Source: Algibacter lectus
Lineage (GTDB): Bacteria; Bacteroidota; Bacteroidia; Flavobacteriales; Flavobacteriaceae
Reading direction: 5' to 3'
Assembly (NCBI RefSeq): GCF_900112395.1
Contig: NZ_FOLN01000001.1
Location: forward strand, 310,001 to 374,000
Length of the DNA stretch: 64,000 nt
The notes below the pieces were generated by a model that was not told the DNA's origin, searched no databases, and saw only the letters and a list, made by a program, of their open reading frames with translations. Positions 40,333-50,839 of this stretch are shown here, piece by piece. Numbering within the stretch: the first letter of the stretch is position 1; the number at the start of each line of letters is the position of its first letter. The position numbers and the translations under genes were made by a program.

Positions 40333-41595
40333 TTAGATGTTTTGAGCTTTTGAGCTATTGTTTTTTGAGATGTTAGTTTTAAATTTATTTCTTAGAATAT
40401 GCATATCTTCACTGACCTTTCGCTCTATAACTTTTGCATAAATTTGAGTAGTTGCAATTTTTGTATGACCCAATAATTTAGAAACGGTTTCTATAGGAAC
40501 ACCATTACTTAACGTTACTGTTGTTGCGAATGTATGTCTAGCAATATGAAATGTTAAGTTCTTTTTGATACTACATAAATCTGCTATTTCTTTTAAATAG
40601 CTATTTAATTTTTGATTAGAAATATTGGGAAATAGTGTTTTAGTTTTCTTGGTTTTAAGATGACCTTTGTATTTTCCTATTAGTTCTTCAGCTATTGGAA
40701 GTATTGGAATTTTCACTTTGCTATGTGTTTTTTGCCTATTAGTGATTATCCAACGACCTCTATCAATTCCAATAGCTATATTATCTTCGTTGAGGTTCAT
40801 TACATCTATATATGATAAACCTGTATAACAGCTAAAAATGAATAAATCCTTAACCAGAGTTAGTCTTTCTATATCAAATTCTTTTTCAATAATGGTTAGT
40901 AATTCGTCTTCTCTTAAAAATTCGCGTTCATTTTTAATATAAGTTGGCTTGAATTTTATAAAAGGATCTTTGTCTATCCATTCCATTTTGTAAGCCAACG
41001 TTACCATTTTACGAAGTCTTTGAATATGTTTCATTACCGTATTGTTTTCCATCTTCTTTTGATGGTCCTCTGGAACATATAACCTTAGAAATTTTTCGAA
41101 GTCAACTAAAAAACGAAAAGTCAATTGAGATAAATATACATCTTGAGTTTTTCTCTTTTTAGCTAAGAATAACTTGATATATTTTTGAGTAGTGAAATAG
41201 TTTTTTAAAGTACCATAAGTTAAAGATTCACTCATTTGTGTGTTATGGTAATCAACTAATGTTAGTAAAGAATACTCTTCGTTGTCTTCTCCTAAAAATC
41301 GAGCCTTGATACTTTGAGAACAAATGAATGTTTTTTCTTTTACAAGCTGGTCGTGTGCTTCGTAGATTCTGTTTTTAACAAGGTCTAAATATCGATTGAG
41401 TAATCGAGATTCTTGTTTGTTTCCTCGTGCTCTTCCTTTGTTAGAATCCCATTCTGATAGAATTACTTTTCGTTGTAAGCTGATATTTGATCGCTTACCG
41501 TTTACAGTTACTCTAGCAAAAACTGAAACTTGATTGTTTTTTACACGTGTAGCATTAACCCAAAATGATAGGGTAAAGGTGGTTTGTGATTGCAT
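40333..41595 (-). CDS. Tyrosine recombinase (CTnDOT-type integrase)
   Basis: 420 aa. Arm-binding domain (1-90), SAM-like core-binding domain (about 110-210), catalytic domain. Catalytic parts seen: CYTGLSYIDV, HIARHTFAT (H-x-x-R), LGHTKIATTQIYAKV (His and nucleophile Tyr). In the first box the usual Arg (TGLR) is Ser, as in IntDOT, which also lacks Arg I. It would catalyse excision and integration at the flanking cores. Located at the right end, with its promoter side facing attR. Confidence 0.92.
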   Translation of the reverse strand: MQSQTTFTLSFWVNATRVKNNQVSVFARVTVNGKRSNISLQRKVILSEWDSNKGRARGNKQESRLLNRYLDLVKNRIYEAHDQLVKEKTFICSQSIKARFLGEDNEEYSLLTLVDYHNTQMSESLTYGTLKNYFTTQKYIKLFLAKKRKTQDVYLSQLTFRFLVDFEKFLRLYVPEDHQKKMENNTVMKHIQRLRKMVTLAYKMEWIDKDPFIKFKPTYIKNEREFLREDELLTIIEKEFDIERLTLVKDLFIFSCYTGLSYIDVMNLNEDNIAIGIDRGRWIITNRQKTHSKVKIPILPIAEELIGKYKGHLKTKKTKTLFPNISNQKLNSYLKEIADLCSIKKNLTFHIARHTFATTVTLSNGVPIETVSKLLGHTKIATTQIYAKVIERKVSEDMHILRNKFKTNISKNNSSKAQNI

Positions 41596-43427: not shown

Positions 43428-44234
43428 CTACTCATTTTTTTTAACTTCTTCTTTTAGACAATTCCAATGAATTGAATTTTTCAGGTTAAACAGCGGCACC
43501 GCATCTAAAATGTTGAGTTTGTATTTATTTGCTATTACTGGCCGAAAATCATTTAAGCCCTTTATATGTATCTTATTACCTACCACCTTATAAATCTTGT
43601 CTACATTTATGATTACCGATCTGTTAACCCTTAAAAAATTTTTTGGTAAAATTTCTAGTATTGACTGCAGTGTTTCTCTTATTAAGTGCTTACCGTTACT
43701 TAAATAAATGGTGATATAATTACGGTCGCTCTCTAGGCATAACAACTCGTTTAAATCGAATTTGATTAATGAATATCCTTCCTTTAAAAAAAAAGTCCCA
43801 TTATTATATCCCAATCCATTCTTTCCTTCTGAATTCATACTCACCATACTATCTGGTGATCCCATCAGAACATTATTATTTTCACTACTACCGATGAGTT
43901 TATCAAAATCTACAAAGGGTCTAAAAAAAATCCGATATAAATCAATCTCCATTTTGCCCTTTTGAGTTTCGATATTTTGTGAAATATTACTGTAAAAGGT
44001 TATCTTAAATTTATATTGATGAAATAAATGATAGCATACCATATCGCCTCTAAACATATCAAAAAAGCAATAATCAATCAGTATAAAATCGTATTCATTA
44101 TTCTGTTCTGACATCCATAAATCTTCCCAACTAAAAAAGACTTCACGTCTACGCACCCCGCTTTTTCTTAAATCATCCAACAGCGCTATACAGTCTGACT
44201 TCTTTTTAATTAAAATTGCTACTCTATCTTTCAT
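43428..44234 (-). CDS. LytTR-type DNA-binding response regulator
   Basis: 268 aa. N-terminal half is a degenerate receiver (RVAILIKKKSDCIALLDDL, YDFILIDYCFFDMF with a plausible phospho-Asp). The C-terminal LytTR domain (about 150-250) is clear: LIKFDLNELLCLESDRNYITIYL, LQSILEILPKNFLRVNRSVIINVDKI, KLNILDAVPLF. LytTR proteins bind direct repeats about two helix turns apart. No histidine kinase is nearby. The gene has the class 1 promoter (44431-44485), so it may control itself. The 3' end of this gene is duplicated in front of module A. Confidence 0.88.
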   Translation of the reverse strand: MKDRVAILIKKKSDCIALLDDLRKSGVRRREVFFSWEDLWMSEQNNEYDFILIDYCFFDMFRGDMVCYHLFHQYKFKITFYSNISQNIETQKGKMEIDLYRIFFRPFVDFDKLIGSSENNNVLMGSPDSMVSMNSEGKNGLGYNNGTFFLKEGYSLIKFDLNELLCLESDRNYITIYLSNGKHLIRETLQSILEILPKNFLRVNRSVIINVDKIYKVVGNKIHIKGLNDFRPVIANKYKLNILDAVPLFNLKNSIHWNCLKEEVKKNE

Positions 44235-44430: not shown

Positions 44431-44485
44431 CAAAATTATCTTCATTGCATGTTATAAAACATAGATAATTATCCATTTACCATGG
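44431..44485 (-). promoter_or_regulatory. Class 1 promoter (LytTR gene)
   Basis: Minus strand: half-site ATCCATG (CCATG at 44485-44481), CTATG at 44464-44460 (21 bp later), 21 bases, then -7 box TAATTTTG (44438-44431). Same geometry as 46482-46536, 48406-48460 and 50759-50813. The leader to the LytTR ATG is about 190 bases and holds a 25-codon frame (44302-44379). Confidence 0.72.
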
Positions 44486-44710
44486 ATAATTTATTCTCTG
44501 GTTTTTATTTTAAGACTATTGACCTTTAACTTTATTAAGCACACCTTCATCTATAATTATCTCACCGCAATCGTAATAGATTTAATAAATACCAACAACT
44601 ACTAATCAATCAAACTCAAAATCTAATTTTTTAAATTTAATTATGCCGCTACATTTTTTTTACCTATCGCTGTTTTTATACTTTATTTATTATATTATTT
44701 TAAGTTTTTT

Positions 44711-44863
44711 TTAATTGATCATGTCTATAACCACACTTATTAGCGCAAATATAATGGTGCAGATTTGTACAAGCACCACCAAATACAATAGGTATAATAA
44801 TATTATTTTAATTAGTTTTTCAGAAGCTTTAAAGAAAGCCATAGGCATGTCATTTTTTTTCAT
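44711..44863 (-). CDS. Small membrane protein, 50 aa
   Basis: Charged start (MKKNDMPMAFFKASEKLIK) followed by one long helix (IILLYLLYLVVLVQICTIIFALISVVI). Same design as the 33- and 47-aa proteins downstream, though without clear sequence identity. It lies upstream of the class 1 promoter of the LytTR gene. The 66-aa frame on the other strand is judged a shadow. Confidence 0.42.
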   Translation of the reverse strand: MKKNDMPMAFFKASEKLIKIILLYLLYLVVLVQICTIIFALISVVIDMIN

Positions 44864-45057
44864 ATTTGTTTTAGGTAATTGCTATATTTTACTCATTAGA
44901 ATTTGTACTACTTAATTTACTATTTGGGTGGTATATAGGCCGCTCGCTAAATGGCCTCAAAAACCTTAATCATTACATGATTTTACCTTACTTATTAAAC
45001 CTACATTTATAAGTAAGACAACACTGAAGCAACCTATACACTTATTACCACCCCTAG

Positions 45058-46167
45058 TTATATATATTTCTGTTTATTCCATATATTGAGACTGTCTTTA
45101 TATTTATAAACACGCACATAATTTATAGCTAGTGTTTGTTTATTATTACCACTATTTTTTTCATAAGCACCTATGAGTATGATAGTATCATTACCCGACA
45201 AGCTTATACTATTAAAACCAGATACATCATACCCTGTTGTTTTACCATCTATATCTGCGCCTTTCTGAATCCAGGTATTAGACCTATTTTGATAAGCACG
45301 TACATAACTATATCTTACGCCTTTATCATTGTTCATATACGCTCCTATAGCCACGATAGAGCCGTCACTAGATAAACTGAGATTCCATCCTGAAAAATTA
45401 CCAACTGATTCACCAACAATAGCATCACCTATTTGTAACCAGTTTCCTGACACATTTTTATATACGCTTACATAGCCAGATGGTCTTCCTCCTTGATGAG
45501 CACCTATAGCTAGAACAGTCCCATTGTTAGACAAACTCACACTTGCCCCGAAATAATCTTTTGTTGCTTTACCATCTATATTTTGCCCTACCTGAGTCCA
45601 AACTCCTGACCTGTTTTTGTAAACACGTACATGTCCCGAATTGTTACCGTTACCGCTATTGAGAACAGCACCTATAGCCACAGTAGCACCATCACCAGAC
45701 AAACTCACACTATAACCTGACCAATCTCCCTCTGATTCACCATCTATATCCGCCCCTACTTGTTTCCAAACCCCCAAATTATTTTTGTAAACACGTACAT
45801 GCCCCGAATTTTTACCGTTGCGACCATGGTTACGCTTAGCTCCTATAGCTACCGTAGTGCCATCATTAGACAAGCTAACACTGTAGCCAAACCAATCTCC
45901 TTCCTTTTCTCCATTGATATCTACACCTACTTGATTCCAAACTCCTGAATTATTTTTGTAAACACGTACATGCCCTGTATTTTCACCATTAACATTAGCA
46001 TCATGAACTCCTATAGCCAAAGTTTTACCATCATCAGACCAACTCATACTATAACTTGACAAATTATTTATTACCTCCTTAGTATTAACGCTTATTTGAG
46101 CTTGACTATAACTAGTTAAACTTAACAGCCCAAAAAGGATTGCTTTTATATTCCTTAATTGTATCAA
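45058..46167 (-). CDS. Secreted FG-GAP/beta-propeller repeat protein
   Basis: 369 aa. Signal peptide (IKAILFGLLSLTSYSQA), then six ~55-residue repeats of the form GYSVSLSNDGTTVAIGA ... GHVRVYKNNSGVWNQVG-DI-GE. This is a propeller repeat seen in large T9SS-secreted Flavobacteriia proteins. The sixth repeat is cut short (ends NIWNKQKYI) and there is no T9SS tail, so the gene may be truncated or a stand-alone short form. Has a class 2 promoter 26 bases upstream. Confidence 0.8.
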   Translation of the reverse strand: MIQLRNIKAILFGLLSLTSYSQAQISVNTKEVINNLSSYSMSWSDDGKTLAIGVHDANVNGENTGHVRVYKNNSGVWNQVGVDINGEKEGDWFGYSVSLSNDGTTVAIGAKRNHGRNGKNSGHVRVYKNNLGVWKQVGADIDGESEGDWSGYSVSLSGDGATVAIGAVLNSGNGNNSGHVRVYKNRSGVWTQVGQNIDGKATKDYFGASVSLSNNGTVLAIGAHQGGRPSGYVSVYKNVSGNWLQIGDAIVGESVGNFSGWNLSLSSDGSIVAIGAYMNNDKGVRYSYVRAYQNRSNTWIQKGADIDGKTTGYDVSGFNSISLSGNDTIILIGAYEKNSGNNKQTLAINYVRVYKYKDSLNIWNKQKYI

Positions 46168-46193
46168 CTTCTTTTTCTGTTATAATTTCAAAG

Positions 46194-46254
46194 CAAAGAT
46201 TCATTCTATTTGGCAACTCTTCTAAAAAAAGTGCTAAAGCATGTTAAAACAGGG
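46194..46254 (-). promoter_or_regulatory. Class 2 promoter (propeller gene)
   Basis: Minus strand: CCC (46254-46252), 16 bases, AGCAC (46235-46231), T7 and 22 more bases (29 in all), -7 box AATCTTTG (46201-46194). Matches 49854-49914 and 53892-53952 in every spacing. Confidence 0.68.
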
Positions 46255-46481
46255 ATAAAAAATAGTTTTTAAGGGACTTTCTAAAACTGTTTTAACACTT
46301 GTATTTAACTTATTTTGTGTGTTATAAAATTAATTTTGCGTTTGAATTAATGAAAAGTGAGTGGTTTTTAATTTAGTCATGACATTGATTACACTAGATA
46401 CATAGATTTTCACAGTCATGCCTGCTTCGCAATAACATATGCTAGTCGTGTTTATACTTGTATTTATTTGTAAAAAATTGT

Positions 46482-46536
46482 CCATGCATAAGTTTTAGAT
46501 ATCCATTTCTAGGTCCTTCAATTTGTAACAAATTTG
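46482..46536 (+). promoter_or_regulatory. Class 1 promoter (ABM gene)
   Basis: CCATG at 46482-46486, CCATT at 46503-46507 (21 bp), 21 bases, -7 box CAAATTTG (46529-46536), then a short leader to the ATG at 46569. Only copy on the + strand; half-sites run in the direction of transcription. Confidence 0.7.
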
Positions 46537-46568
46537 CACTGTAACAAAAATTTAAAAACAATAATATT

Positions 46569-47195
46569 ATGAAACATACAAAAAAAGAAACCATTGGATT
46601 ATTGGTAACCATGAAAGCTAAACCCAGTAAAAAAAAAGAAGTTAAAGAGTTTTTGCTTAGTGGATTAGCACTAGTAAGTAAAGAACCTCAAACGGTGTCT
46701 TGGTTTGCCTTTAGGATAGACGAAAACACTTTTGGCATATATGATGCTTTTGAAGTAGAAGCAGGTAGACAAGCTCATTTAAAAGGAGACGTTGCAAAAG
46801 CACTATTGACACATGCTGATACTTTATTGGAAAGCTTTGATGTAAACGTAAGTATTCACCCCGTTAATATCATTGCTTCTAACCATAAATCTGGAACACA
46901 AAACAAAGGCTTATTGGTTATTATGAACGCTAAAGCAGGTAAATCTGAAGCTGTAGAAAATTTTCTTCAGGTAGGTAAGCAATTGGTAAATGATGAACCA
47001 GAGACCTTATCATGGTATGCCATTAAACTAGATGACACAAAGTATGCCATCTTTGATACTTTTGCGGATGATATTGGTAGAGATGCACACTTAACAGGAA
47101 AAATAGCAGCGGCTCTTATAGAAAATGCTCCTGTTATTCTGAAAGATTTTGAAACCTCTGCTATTCAAAAGATAGATATTTTGGTTTCCAAATAA
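46569..47195 (+). CDS. Tandem antibiotic biosynthesis monooxygenase (ABM) domain protein
   Basis: 208 aa made of two similar ABM domains: 8-95 (GLLVTMKAKPSKKKEVKEFL, EPQTVSWFAFRID, FGIYDAFEVEAGRQAHLKG) and 112-205 (GLLVIMNAKAGKSEAVENFL, EPETLSWYAIKLD, YAIFDTFADDIGRDAHLTG). ABM domains are small dimeric ferredoxin-like folds in quinol or heme oxygenases and stress proteins; here the dimer is fused. No signal peptide, so cytoplasmic. Class 1 promoter directly upstream; the AraC gene is convergent at 47270. Confidence 0.85.
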   Translation: MKHTKKETIGLLVTMKAKPSKKKEVKEFLLSGLALVSKEPQTVSWFAFRIDENTFGIYDAFEVEAGRQAHLKGDVAKALLTHADTLLESFDVNVSIHPVNIIASNHKSGTQNKGLLVIMNAKAGKSEAVENFLQVGKQLVNDEPETLSWYAIKLDDTKYAIFDTFADDIGRDAHLTGKIAAALIENAPVILKDFETSAIQKIDILVSK

Positions 47196-47269
47196 TCATA
47201 AAAAAAATTAGAAGAAAAAAGGAGCTTCTTAATTGATGCTCCTTTTTCGATATACGGATCTATAACTAA

Positions 47270-48148
47270 CTACAAAAGATTAGCTTGTGATTTTTCTAGT
47301 TTAGCGAAACCAACTGTTTTTCTATAAATATCTGGTGAAACGCCTACTTTCTTTTTAAAAAATCGGCTAAAATAAAACTCATCTTCATACCCTAAAGCAT
47401 CTGCTATTTGTTTTACAGGTTTTGAGGTTAAATAAAGTTCTCGCTTTGCAGCAATAATAATTCTATTAGTTATTAAACATGTAAGGGTTTGGTTTAAATA
47501 TTTTTTAACCATTCCTGCTAGAGTTTTAGAACTTACGCATAACATATCTGCGTATTCTTTTGGTGCGTGTAGCTTGGAATAATTACTTTCGATAGCATCT
47601 ACCAAATTTTGCAAGACTTCTGATTGTCTATCTGAAAATTTTAGTACGGTATCTTTATCAAATTTCTTTTTTTGTCTCACAGATTCAATAAGAAACACTT
47701 TTAAAAAAGCAACTAGTACTTCATGTTGTGCAATAGAATCTTTATCCATTTCCCTTGAAATTTGATCTATAAGATTAAAAAACAATGCTTCTTCTGAGAC
47801 TTTAAAATAAGGTAATCCATGAAAATTACCAAAAAGCACGCCTTCTGTTTCAATTTCATTTTGATGGCGGTATGTACAAAAAAAATCGGGATGAAAATTT
47901 AATATAAACCCTGAGCACTCCCCTTTTGAGGTTATCATAAAAGGTTGATAAGGAGATAAACAAATCATATGATTTGCTTCGAGTTGATACTCTGAAAAGT
48001 CTACTTTTAAATTAAAGCTATTACTGCATAACAGGATAATGGAGTAGTAATTTTTTCGTTGTAAATGATCAAACTGGTTTAGATTATTGAATCGCTCTAA
48101 CCTAAATGCTAATTCATCATTTTGCTTATTAATAATAATTTGAGCCAT
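47270..48148 (-). CDS. AraC family transcriptional regulator
   Basis: 292 aa. N-terminal cupin-like region (1-150, FSEYQLEANHMICLSPYQPFMI; GFILNFHPDFF) and C-terminal HTH_18 pair (HAPKEYADMLCVSSKTLAGMVKKYLNQTLTCLITNRIIIAAKRELYL; PVKQIADALGYEDEFYFSRFFKKKVGVSPDIYR). AraC proteins bind 17-bp direct half-sites 21 bp apart, which is also the class 1 spacing, so this protein is a second candidate reader of those sites. The class 1 promoter 48406-48460 drives it after a ~250-base leader. Confidence 0.92.
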   Translation of the reverse strand: MAQIIINKQNDELAFRLERFNNLNQFDHLQRKNYYSIILLCSNSFNLKVDFSEYQLEANHMICLSPYQPFMITSKGECSGFILNFHPDFFCTYRHQNEIETEGVLFGNFHGLPYFKVSEEALFFNLIDQISREMDKDSIAQHEVLVAFLKVFLIESVRQKKKFDKDTVLKFSDRQSEVLQNLVDAIESNYSKLHAPKEYADMLCVSSKTLAGMVKKYLNQTLTCLITNRIIIAAKRELYLTSKPVKQIADALGYEDEFYFSRFFKKKVGVSPDIYRKTVGFAKLEKSQANLL

Positions 48149-48405
48149 GGTAAGTTACCTTTAGTTTCTTTATGCTCCATAAAGATCTTCAAATAATTCT
48201 TTTACTTTCTGGGAATTTCAGTTTTTTTTAAGCTGTAATCTACTTTTACTTTAGTTCTTGTTGGGGGTGTCCTTTTAATCTTTCCATTTCCTGCTAAGTT
48301 ATTAGAGAACGTTTTAGAAGTTTTACACGCAGAATTTAAACTATGCCATTTAACCAACGTTAAATATAAGGAAAATTTTTAATAATTCTGTTAAATTCTT
48401 ATTCT
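48149..48405. other. Long leader of the AraC gene
   Basis: About 255 bases between the -7 box and the AraC ATG. No gene; only short frames on the minus strand. Could hold regulatory RNA structure. Confidence 0.4.
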
Positions 48406-48460
48406 CAAAACTATTTCTAATATGTGTTGTAAAACATGGACCATTTTCTATTTACCATGG
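48406..48460 (-). promoter_or_regulatory. Class 1 promoter (AraC gene)
   Basis: Minus strand: CCATG (48460-48456), CCATG (48439-48435), 21 bases, -7 box TAGTTTTG (48413-48406). The best preserved of the four copies, with perfect half-sites. Confidence 0.72.
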
Positions 48461-48630
48461 ATAATTTTTACTTAGTCGTCGTTTTAAGTTTTAATATGAG
48501 CGGAAATCGAAAGAGGTAATAATTGATATCATCAATATTAAAGTGTCTGCTTCATGTAAGTGACATGATGAATAAAAATCTAAAAACAGAAAGAATTAAA
48601 CCTTAAATAATCCTTAGTTTTTTTTAAAAT

Positions 48631-49050
48631 TTATACAATTTTTAAGGTTGTATCACTAGGCTCTTTCTTTAATAAATAGCTATATTCGATTTTCATCTGA
48701 AAGGCTAATAACGCTAAATAAACTTTAATTTCTTTTTCTTTATCACTGACTCCTATAGAAAATAGAATGTCCATGATTTTTTCGGAAACTATTGAAGCTT
48801 CTTTTTTGATATCGGCAATCATAAAATCCCTCCTACTAAGTAACTGCAAATTAAAAGCTCTTCTATAAGCATTGTACAAATTATTAACAGAAAGCTTATT
48901 TAAAATCAACCTTTCCATCTCTGTATGCTTTCTTTTATTATTAAACTCTAGTTTCTTAGCAATATCCTCCTTATCTACACCTTTATATTTTAGAAGCAAA
49001 TAATTTAATTCTTTATCATTGAATAGTTTTACTGTATGAGCTTGTATCAT
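48631..49050 (-). CDS. LuxR-like HTH protein, second of a tandem pair
   Basis: 139 aa. FNDKELNYLLLKYKGVDKEDIAKKLEFNNKRKHTEMERLILNKLSVNNLYNAYRRAFNLQLL has the rhythm of LuxR-type HTH domains (hxxhE-L-x-x-x-DIAxxL ... L-x-N-x-x-A). The rest is helical. Paralogue of the preceding gene, which it overlaps by ATGA. Probably DNA-binding; target unknown. Confidence 0.6.
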   Translation of the reverse strand: MIQAHTVKLFNDKELNYLLLKYKGVDKEDIAKKLEFNNKRKHTEMERLILNKLSVNNLYNAYRRAFNLQLLSRRDFMIADIKKEASIVSEKIMDILFSIGVSDKEKEIKVYLALLAFQMKIEYSYLLKKEPSDTTLKIV

Positions 49051-49454
49051 TTTAAAGTGATTTTCATTTTTTTTAGAGCGAGCGTTATGGAGTTATCAAA
49101 ATCAAATATAGTCTCTTTAGGAAGCTTATATCTAGAAGGTTTACTTTTAAAATCACCAACTATTTTTGAAGCATAATCTAGTGCTATTTCTTTTATGGCT
49201 GGATCGACATAATCTCGTTCCTGTAAAATCCCAAGTTCAAATGCTTTTTGAATTAAAACGAACCAATCTTTAGTCTTAAATTTCATTTTTAAGGTTCTTT
49301 TTATATAGCTCAAATCTTTCTTTTCCATTTCAAGGAAATTTGAAATGTATTGATCATCATAATTATGGACAAATAATCTCAAAAAATACCTTTCATTATT
49401 TGATAATTCAATACTGCCATCCTCATTTATTAATTCAATTGTACTACACTCCAT
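49047..49454 (-). CDS. LuxR-like HTH protein, first of a tandem pair
   Basis: 135 aa. LSNNERYFLRLFVHNYDDQYISNFLEMEKKDLSYIKRTLKMKFKTKDWFVLIQKAFELGIL follows the LuxR C-terminal pattern (E-x-x-x-L-x-L, I-x-x-x-L, L-x-x-KF-x-x-x-x, A-x-x-x-G-I-L). No receiver domain. Translationally coupled to the next gene. Downstream of the 68-aa zinc-ribbon-like gene and its class 2 promoter. Confidence 0.62.
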   Translation of the reverse strand: MECSTIELINEDGSIELSNNERYFLRLFVHNYDDQYISNFLEMEKKDLSYIKRTLKMKFKTKDWFVLIQKAFELGILQERDYVDPAIKEIALDYASKIVGDFKSKPSRYKLPKETIFDFDNSITLALKKMKITLK

Positions 49455-49510
49455 GTTTTTTTTATCTTAATATTTTACTAATTCCACTATAAAATCAACA
49501 TCTAACACTT

Positions 49511-49717
49511 TCACAATCGTAATTTTCTCTTATTATGAATGTCCTCTAGCATGTTATTTATTTCTTTAAATTTTGGTGTCAATTCTATTAAATCACCTTT
49601 ACTATTTGTAGTCAATTCCTTTTTACAATTATTACAGCTATATTCTTTTACATAAGACGTTACGTCTCGAGATACTTTGTAATCGTGTCCAAATATCTTG
49701 CAATACATATTTCTCAT
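49511..49717 (-). CDS. Small zinc-ribbon-like protein
   Basis: 68 aa. CKIFGHDY near the start and C-x-x-C (YSCNNCKKEL) suggest a metal-binding ribbon similar to small phage-type DUF1660 proteins. The C-terminus is helical (KFKEINNMLEDIHNKRK). First gene of the three-gene minus-strand operon with the LuxR-like pair. Confidence 0.62.
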   Translation of the reverse strand: MRNMYCKIFGHDYKVSRDVTSYVKEYSCNNCKKELTTNSKGDLIELTPKFKEINNMLEDIHNKRKLRL

Positions 49718-50217
49718 TTTGTTTGTAACTTTTTTTCTTAAGGAGAGACTGTCAAAATATTTGAACTAAACCATGACTAGTTAAATTCACTAATTCTATA
49801 AAAAATTAAGGATGTATTCCCTTCATATTTTTTTAACTTAGGTTTAATGTTTTCAAAGATTGATTCTTTATATAAATTATTCTAAAAAAAGTGCTAAACC
49901 AGATTTAAAGTGGGACGAATTAGTAAGTTTATAGGATTTTAAAAAACGTTTTCTAGCTTTAGATGTTCTTTTTACACTTAAAAAATTAAAGCCAATGTAA
50001 TGTACCAGGTGTTTGGAACGGGTTTATTGGGATTCCTCTTCTGTCCACAGAAGAGTATTAGGAGAATGATAGAGTTATGGAGAAGCTAGATTGGTATACA
50101 CCCCTAAAATGAAAAAGTTACCTTCTCAAGCATTCGTCCAAGATCATTAAGTTAAGAAATTTTCAAACATAATACCTGTTATATGCATACCTGTTTTCTT
50201 TGTAGAAAGTTGTCTAT
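49718..50217. other. Intergenic region with class 2 promoter
   Basis: About 500 bases. Holds the promoter at 49854-49914 and otherwise no gene. Confidence 0.5.
49854..49914 (-). promoter_or_regulatory. Class 2 promoter (zinc-ribbon/LuxR-like operon)
   Basis: Minus strand: CCC (49914-49912), 16 bases, TTTAGCAC with AGCAC at 49895-49891, T7AGAA, -7 box AATCTTTG (49861-49854). The -7 box is identical to that at 46194-46201. Leader to the 68-aa gene is about 135 bases. Confidence 0.68.
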
Positions 50218-50697
50218 TTATTTTTCAACTGCTAGAATAAGTGCATCACCAGTCATTTTGATTGCACCTATTTCAGTTTCACACTTTACAAACCAATTGC
50301 CATCGGGCAATTGTTTTATCCCGTTAACCCAAAACCTTTGAACCAAATTCTTCTCTTCCTTCACTAATTCTGGCAAACGAATATTAAAATTGGTGGGCCA
50401 TATTTTAAATCTTTCATCATCTGGTGAATATTCAATATTTTTGTAATAACAAAAATAAACATAGAGCAGCTTTTGACACTGAATTAATGGCGATAAAAAG
50501 ATAAGGTGACTAGGACTGTTTATCATATCTGTAAAGTACTCACGTGAAAACTCAACTTCTATATAGTTTTTAGCGCACCGGTATTCTTTAATAAATAATT
50601 TTTCACGAACATTCTTCTCAGGCATAATATTGAATGACAAATCATTAATGCTATCGTCTTTAATAACTTTTTCAAATGTTTCAGGTATTTCTTTCAT
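50218..50697 (-). CDS. Hypothetical protein under class 1 promoter
   Basis: 159 aa, soluble, not recognised. Mixed alpha/beta: IEVEFSREYFTDMINSPSHLIFLSPLIQCQKLLYVYFCYYKNIE, and WFVKCETEIGAIKMTGDALILAVEK at the end. No signal peptide. Preceded by a class 1 promoter, so it belongs to the same regulatory set as the LytTR, AraC and ABM genes. Confidence 0.6.
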   Translation of the reverse strand: MKEIPETFEKVIKDDSINDLSFNIMPEKNVREKLFIKEYRCAKNYIEVEFSREYFTDMINSPSHLIFLSPLIQCQKLLYVYFCYYKNIEYSPDDERFKIWPTNFNIRLPELVKEEKNLVQRFWVNGIKQLPDGNWFVKCETEIGAIKMTGDALILAVEK

Positions 50698-50758
50698 TAT
50701 TTTATTTTTATGTTAGCCCTATTTTTATAAGGATTAATTTTTTTAATTTATCACTCTC

Positions 50759-50813
50759 CAATATTACTTTAATCGTGTAAGCCAATACATGGACCGTTCT
50801 CTGTTTTTCATGG
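50759..50813 (-). promoter_or_regulatory. Class 1 promoter (159-aa gene)
   Basis: Minus strand: CCATG (50813-50809), CCATG (50792-50788), 21 bases, -7 box TAATATTG (50766-50759, one mismatch). Leader about 55 bases. Confidence 0.7.
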
Positions 50814-50839
50814 ATATTTTTTTCGGTTAGACCTTAAAC

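Follow-up and report, generated by a model that had tools for sequence, protein, structure and literature searches.

The 64 kb stretch of the Algibacter lectus genome considered here (the whole of which we call the window) carries genes for an AraC-family regulator, a LytTR-domain regulator, a protein referred to as ABM and a 159-aa protein, each preceded by a site in which two direct half-sites 21 bp apart stand at a fixed distance from a -7 promoter box (Table 1). An earlier reading of the same DNA, which we call the original prediction, had placed four such rigidly spaced sites here, all upstream of and pointing at these genes, and had counted two exact TAnnTTTG boxes and two with one mismatch; all of this holds. 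Searching the window for CCATG-N16-CCATG-N21-TANNTTTG, with up to two mismatches tolerated, returned exactly four matches, compared with a mean of 0.03 and a maximum of 1 in dinucleotide-shuffled controls, and the -7 boxes of sites 1 to 4 read TAATTTTG, CAAATTTG, TAGTTTTG and TAATATTG. The proposed CCATG half-sites stand as regards their layout but need amending in their letters: the full half-site is TCCAT with an A/T tract before it (AAAATTRTCCATG), longer than CCATG, and two half-sites carry one mismatch each (TCTATG in site 1 and TCCATT in site 2). The -7 box lies 196, 32, 257 and 61 bp from the start codon for sites 1, 2, 3 and 4, respectively.

Table 1. Sites, genes and gene remnants of the locus, in window positions
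Feature	Position	Strand	Site make-up or family match	Remarks
Site 1	44431..44486	-	Class B; TCCATG N15 TCTATG N21 TAATTTTG; 1 mismatch (pattern span 44431-44485)	Upstream of LytTR gene
Site 2	46481..46536	+	Class A; TCCATG N15 TCCATT N21 CAAATTTG; 2 mismatches (pattern span 46482-46536)	Putative ABM gene promoter
Site 3	48406..48461	-	Class B; 0 mismatches (pattern span 48406-48460)	Putative araC promoter, probably once that of a prenyl synthase-drimenol synthase-araC operon
Site 4	50759..50814	-	Class B; 1 mismatch (pattern span 50759-50813)	Putative promoter of 159-aa protein gene
AraC-family regulator, 292 aa	47270..48148	-	PF12833, E 4.4e-18	Predicted reader of sites 1 to 4
ABM gene, 208 aa, two similar halves	46569..47195	+		Predicted conserved target of site 2
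LytTR-domain regulator	43428..44234	-	PF04397, E 7.4e-13	Predicted target of site 1
159-aa protein	50218..50697	-		Predicted target of site 4; ortholog in L083
Prenyl (farnesyl) diphosphate synthase 5'-end remnant	48202..48287	-		Frame-broken; in leader between site 3 and araC
139-aa protein	48631..49050	-	GerE match absent for window protein	Upstream of site 3
135-aa protein	49047..49454	-		Resembles 139-aa protein; paired with its gene in related loci
FG-GAP repeat protein	45058..46167	-		Homologs in L083-L087, L089 and L161; present at most convergent loci
Tyrosine-type integrase	40333-41595		Phage_integrase, SAM-like and arm-binding domains	Adjoins the locus

Within the complete genome (4.81 Mb) the same pattern at up to two mismatches gives eight matches against three for a reversed-pattern control; the four outside the locus are thus about what the reversed control yields, their number is at chance level, and the layout is confined to this locus. 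The layout recurs across Bacteroidota, frequently ahead of the operon that contains the AraC gene itself, as described below. The half-site pair alone (TCCATG N15 TCCATG, up to two mismatches) is rarer than its reversed control, with 208 matches against 355, and so is uninformative without the -7 box. No wide regulon was found in the A. lectus genome: at E <= 0.01 a class B model gives only the three class B sites of the locus, the next match being at 0.0202.

The AraC protein scores 65.8 bits against PF12833 (cut-off 33.6) and 39.6 bits against PF00165 (cut-off 26.6). The ABM protein reached no Pfam or NCBIfam family, its name being that given in the original prediction, and Pfam and NCBIfam gave no family for the 159-aa protein either; the latter has no ortholog in 298 other family genomes, where there are three weak matches only (E 3e-4 to 8e-4). 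Site 4 itself is kept, with two mismatches, in the near relative Flavivirga jejuensis (L083; labels with L and G denote loci and genomes).

Distribution of the layout among relatives

AraC orthologs 76-81% identical to that of the window occur in five of 198 other family genomes, all five of which have the ABM site, and seven more genomes have orthologs 44-51% identical. Scanning a species-level genome collection by AraC alignment gave at least 80 loci, many of them closely related and seven sharing a near-identical unit, probably transferred recently. Among those listed, 54 have a full ABM ortholog (a match beginning at residue 5 or earlier, with 55% identity or more), arranged as 46 co-directional ABM-AraC pairs and eight convergent pairs like that of the window. 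A TCCAT pair exactly 21 bp apart precedes ABM in 48 of these 54 loci (42/46 co-directional, 6/8 convergent), the next commonest spacing in the ABM upstream regions being 26 bp, in 13 of 54. In four of the six loci without an exact pair a single TCCAT letter is changed (L083, L085, L112 and L131), in L133 two are, and L110 ends at a contig edge. Collapsing left 42 unique ABM sites, 38 of which have TTTG at offset 52 and 41 of which have no TTG near -33.

The layout also extends to more distant AraC proteins. Twenty-six of the listed loci have an AraC 46-57% identical over the best segment (L133 is counted also among the 54), mostly accompanied by other genes, which by eye and from their first residues encode AhpD/carboxymuconolactone-decarboxylase-like, single-domain ABM-like and other proteins; the first of these families was tested on L036 alone, giving PF02627. 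At 21 of these 26 loci there are TCCAT pairs spaced by 21 bp, 23 pairs in total, all on the AraC strand and upstream of AraC, with 33 bp the next spacing (five times), and TTTG stands at offset 52 in 23/23. When each locus is represented by a single site, 20 of the 21 stand 29-48 bp ahead of the first open frame, and in L157 the predicted frame begins within the site. Around AraC paralogs only 32-37% identical there are no pairs at 21 bp in 17 loci, a weak control in that these hold only three pairs of any spacing. Taken together, these comparisons indicate that the site tracks this AraC subfamily.

Two sequence-only profiles, R1 (27 sites) and R2 (nine class B sites), were used across genomes. 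R1 has matches in 14/14 genomes with an AraC ortholog (weakest best E 1.9e-10), of which eight, including G117, supplied training sites and the other six did not, although their ABM sites resemble the training sites. Among 14 genomes without an AraC ortholog, hand-picked from the AraC ortholog table and including the same-genus G153, R1 has no match at E < 1e-4 and two weak ones, at 7.8e-4 and 0.0095. At the level of sequence we regard the sites, their rigid spacing and their conservation with AraC, together with the operon remnant described below, as established. The combined model applied to the A. lectus genome gave the four sites and one partial match (G000:C16:164993-165042, E 0.0018), an R1 match that falls at the end of the gene for a 33% AraC paralog.

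The transferred unit deserves separate mention. An ABM-AraC stretch 97.5-99.8% identical is found in L095:6089-8268, L094, L096, L097, L134, L102 and L105, in hosts comprising Albibacterium, Algoriphagus, Psychroserpens, Sphingobacterium, a Zunongwangia metagenome-assembled genome, Mesonia and Paenimyroides. The shared stretch is only 1.8-2.2 kb long and begins about 12 nt past an open reading frame that by eye resembles an IS3-type transposase, and its sequence makes recent horizontal transfer likely in the seven records.

Site 3 and a drimenol synthase operon

In loci L084-L087, L089, L090 and L161, genes for a prenyl diphosphate synthase and a HAD-terpene cyclase directly precede araC, the second open frame in L090 being just 313 aa. 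The L161 cyclase (L161:5415-6980) matches the drimenol synthases of PDB entries 9mhs (E 3.4e-288) and 9m7d (E 2.5e-285) over nearly its whole length, and the first gene of the operon encodes a polyprenyl synthase (PF00348) whose closest NCBIfam model, farnesyl diphosphate synthase, is matched below cut-off. A full-length drimenol synthase is present in G300-G303 and absent from G000, G299, G304, G305 and G306; the first three of these have HAD-like matches only, at 28-31%, and in the last two no match reaches E <= 1e-10.

Between site 3 and araC, both the window and F. jejuensis retain stretches of the operon promoter, its leader and the first prenyl synthase codons. In blastn comparisons of leaders, with E-values from a two-sequence database, L084 and F. 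jejuensis are 68% identical over 252 nt (E 4e-18), L161 and the window 76% over 71 nt and over 82 nt (E 6e-10 each), and L089 and the window 70% over 133 nt (E 5e-11). At the protein level the prenyl synthase remnant is weak in the window (E 0.008 for the leader only, 1.9 for the whole window) and stronger in F. jejuensis (E 3e-6, leader only). These alignments identify site 3 as what must be the old drimenol-operon promoter, the synthase pair having been lost from the window, and loss of the enzyme genes between site 3 and araC would account for the long araC leader. The locus would thus be an example of a promoter handed from biosynthetic genes to their regulator through deletion. An invertible araC segment was also considered, since araC is inverted relative to its position in the ABM-araC operon form, and was rejected; among the inverted repeats listed, the longest measure 20-44 nt with 70-85% complementarity and none is prominent, and deletion of the enzyme genes together with the convergent order in relatives explains the arrangement better.

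Of the neighbouring genes, those for the 139-aa and 135-aa proteins (48631-49454) precede the drimenol operon as a pair in several related loci, and their L161 homologs show a weak LuxR-type (GerE) helix-turn-helix (E 0.0019 and 0.006, respectively), below the Pfam cut-off. The window scan found no site of the pattern in front of the FG-GAP repeat gene. The integrase gene possibly marks an integrated element, and F. jejuensis carries a second ABM-AraC copy (L088).

Reader of the sites

We read the four sites as operators of the AraC protein, a class II-like activator that also drives its own gene, with site 3 derived from a drimenol operon, and give this reading a probability of about 0.85. 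Two AraC subunits, arranged head to tail, would occupy TCCAT half-sites 21 bp, or two helix turns, apart, and the inner subunit would cover the missing -33 element, touch sigma and recruit sigma-A RNA polymerase to a -7 box held at a fixed distance from the half-sites; in this way AraC would turn on its own gene and those for ABM, the LytTR regulator and the 159-aa protein. In related loci a promoter of this kind would drive prenyl synthase, drimenol synthase and araC, and in A. lectus the two enzyme genes would have been deleted, leaving the promoter attached to araC.

The TAnnTTTG box corresponds to the Bacteroidota sigma-A consensus, described at -12 to -5 (PMC9723704), and with TTTG ending at -5 in that numbering the two half-sites are positioned near -60 and -39. 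The inner half-site overlaps the -33/-35 region at a constant distance from the -7 box (the TTTG offset being 52 in 38/42 ABM and 23/23 distant sites), and these positions, combined with the scarcity of a -33 TTG in the ABM promoters, fit an activator. The original proposal that direct half-sites 21 bp apart over -33 serve one factor is supported at the sequence level. The site heads araC or an AraC-containing operon in 42/46 ABM-AraC pairs, 21/26 distant operons, 3/7 drimenol operons and this window (co-transcription being assumed from gene order), so that positive feedback looks like the usual design; the self-control originally claimed is upheld by the site ahead of araC here and of the AraC operon in many related loci, though not all. 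Binding by AraC, activation in preference to repression, positive autoregulation and the existence of an inducer are what we infer from these relations.

An AraC protein covering the -33 region could instead act as a repressor, blocking RNA polymerase until released by a ligand, and the overlap of the inner half-site with -33 would also allow this. We consider it unlikely, as promoters without a -33 TTG, which make up 41 of the 42 unique ABM sites, should be weak without help, and constant spacing from the -7 box is more to be expected of contact activation than of blocking.

Several observations weigh against the reading favoured here. Among the seven loci with an AraC 44-51% identical, an operon site (up to two mismatches, within flanks of 1.5 kb) is found only in L036, L037 and L040, and five of the 26 distant loci (L133, L135, L136, L158 and L159) have no 21-bp pair. 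The drimenol-operon promoter has the site in three of seven loci and lacks it in the four Aquimarina loci, which rules out a site before every such operon; in L084 the distance to the -7 box is 22 bp, not 21. No site was found ahead of araC in L085-L088 or L090, all of them convergent loci, and the equivalent of site 3 in F. jejuensis (L083:6737-6792) is a natural spacing mutant, with half-sites 14 bp apart instead of 21. Close kinship and the transferred unit also mean that the locus counts overstate independence. Finally, there are two sub-classes of site, class A before ABM, with the consensus AAAATTGTCCATGcntAAGT..ATCCATTCC..CAAATTTGCAnTGT, and class B before lytTR, araC, the 159-aa gene, the drimenol operon and a PorP/SprF gene, with the consensus AAAATTRTCCATGnnAAATRGAnAATnRTCCATGTtTTA..GATAATTTTG; their second half-sites differ, being TCCATTCC ahead of ABM and TCCATGTtTTA ahead of the other genes. 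Class B at E < 1e-4 is found in all six genomes with a LytTR ortholog and in none of the three others searched. In these three, which have the operon form, the best class B matches are at 1.8e-4, within an open frame, and at 0.028 and 0.065.

The last points bear on the LytTR protein, which the original prediction had named beside AraC as a possible reader. The AraC half of that suggestion is favoured by the way the site tracks AraC in relatives; the LytTR half fares badly, as the site is kept in genomes without a LytTR ortholog. Three of these (G304, G305 and G306) have the site and no LytTR ortholog at E <= 1e-20, and five (G051, G144, G107, G117 and G027) have the site and best matches to the LytTR query of only E 1e-8 to 4e-12. 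With the ABM site thus retained in eight of the genomes searched in the absence of a LytTR ortholog, LytTR as the general reader is rejected. Among 198 other family genomes there is no LytTR ortholog, other matches reaching at most 55.3 bits against 600 for the protein itself. Where the LytTR gene does occur it is preceded by a site in 6/6 genomes (the window and five others), and across these six upstream regions 37 of 56 columns within the site are invariant, compared with 85 of 445 elsewhere, which marks the gene as a conserved target, by the evidence of these alignments, rather than the general reader.

A divided arrangement, in which AraC reads class A before ABM and the LytTR protein reads class B before lytTR, araC and the 159-aa gene, draws support from the restriction, at E < 1e-4, of class B to the LytTR-ortholog genomes. 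LytTR repeats are 9 bp long and with a 12-bp gap recur about every 21 bp start to start, matching the sites. Such proteins bind direct repeats mostly 12 bp apart, with a minority at 11 or 13 bp, and self-control is typical of their genes (PMC6193735). We nevertheless hold a divided readership to be improbable: class A, class B and the sites of LytTR-free genomes share the A/T tract and TCCAT, the 21-bp step and the TTTG offset, the presence of LytTR is confounded with that of the target genes, and the repeats reported for LytTR operons are placed about 10 bp upstream of -35 and not over it (PMC6193735), so that the sites agree with LytTR binding in start-to-start distance and disagree in their position over -33.

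That the sites all stem from the duplication of a single promoter or mobile element, and persist through descent and not through binding, is very improbable: sites 1 and 3 are indeed 74% alike over 74 nt, extending past the -7 box, and copying may have seeded both, but sites 1, 3 and 4 match as a direct-repeat family over just 39 nt (identity to the reference copy 82-85%), site 2 has little in common with the others beyond the half-sites, the layout recurs with different surroundings in distant Bacteroidota, so conservation is not confined to duplicates, and copying leaves the conserved spacing unexplained.

Returning to AraC as the reader, further class B sites may mark additional targets. 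They stand before a gene for a 321-aa protein, lipoprotein-like by eye, in G300 and G302 and before a PorP/SprF gene in L161; those at G300:C6:219884 (L181) and G302:C13:26463 (L190) are on contigs other than that of the AraC locus and are candidate regulon members, and a partial class B match (E 1.7e-4) goes with a PorP/SprF-like gene in Aquimarina spongiae (G301). A more speculative extension, to which we give a low probability, is that the locus is the relic of a sesquiterpene signalling circuit of which only the receiver is left, so that A. lectus would respond to the drimenol of its neighbours without making any. AraC would then sense drimenol itself, or a compound from which it is made or into which it breaks down, and would turn on its own operon together with LytTR as a second-tier regulator and with genes for the surface or for secretion (lipoprotein-like, PorP/SprF), the synthase pair having been lost and araC left under the biosynthetic promoter.

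Comparison with known systems

Escherichia coli AraC at araI1-araI2, like class II AraC activators, occupies two direct half-sites that are two helix turns apart, and the inner of these falls in the -35 region. The sites described here have the same geometry but belong to a Bacteroidota sigma-A promoter with a TAnnTTTG -7 box, and no sugar genes were seen. The best named family match of the AraC protein is HpaA (NCBIfam TIGR02297, E 5.8e-29), of which it is not a member, its 101.2 bits falling short of the cut-off of 274.65. The repeats described for LytTR proteins have a similar step and another promoter position (PMC6193735).

Also among the closest known systems are the bacterial loci of the drimenol synthases AsDMS and FeDMS (PMC9128629, PMC12365925), whose enzyme genes are lost from the window; L086 is Aquimarina spongiae (DSM 22623), the species of AsDMS, and has the same gene order. 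These two papers describe the enzymes, with no account of their control found there, and neither 'AraC' nor 'operon' occurs in their main texts. For the Flavivirga kind of bacterial drimenol synthase locus, our analysis predicts which regulator acts, which operator it uses and how the promoter is laid out.

The set had been put forward as an undescribed regulon, and this applies to the regulon, as far as a search of the open-licence literature reaches (it found no paper on this regulator or site, which is short of showing absence from print), but not to its architecture. For the AraC-type hybrid two-component system (HTCS) regulators of Bacteroides, tandem sites with an average distance of 21 bp have been predicted (PMC3878776), so that both systems combine an AraC-type DNA-binding domain with predicted direct repeats about 21 bp apart, the comparison covering domain and repeat spacing. 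The HTCS regulators are hybrid sensors for glycan use, whereas the AraC protein of the window is a one-component regulator with other targets. With the 21-bp direct repeat documented for them, what is new is the regulon and not the kind of site: a small AraC regulon across Bacteroidota, with a layout that appears strict enough to predict activator-dependent promoters.

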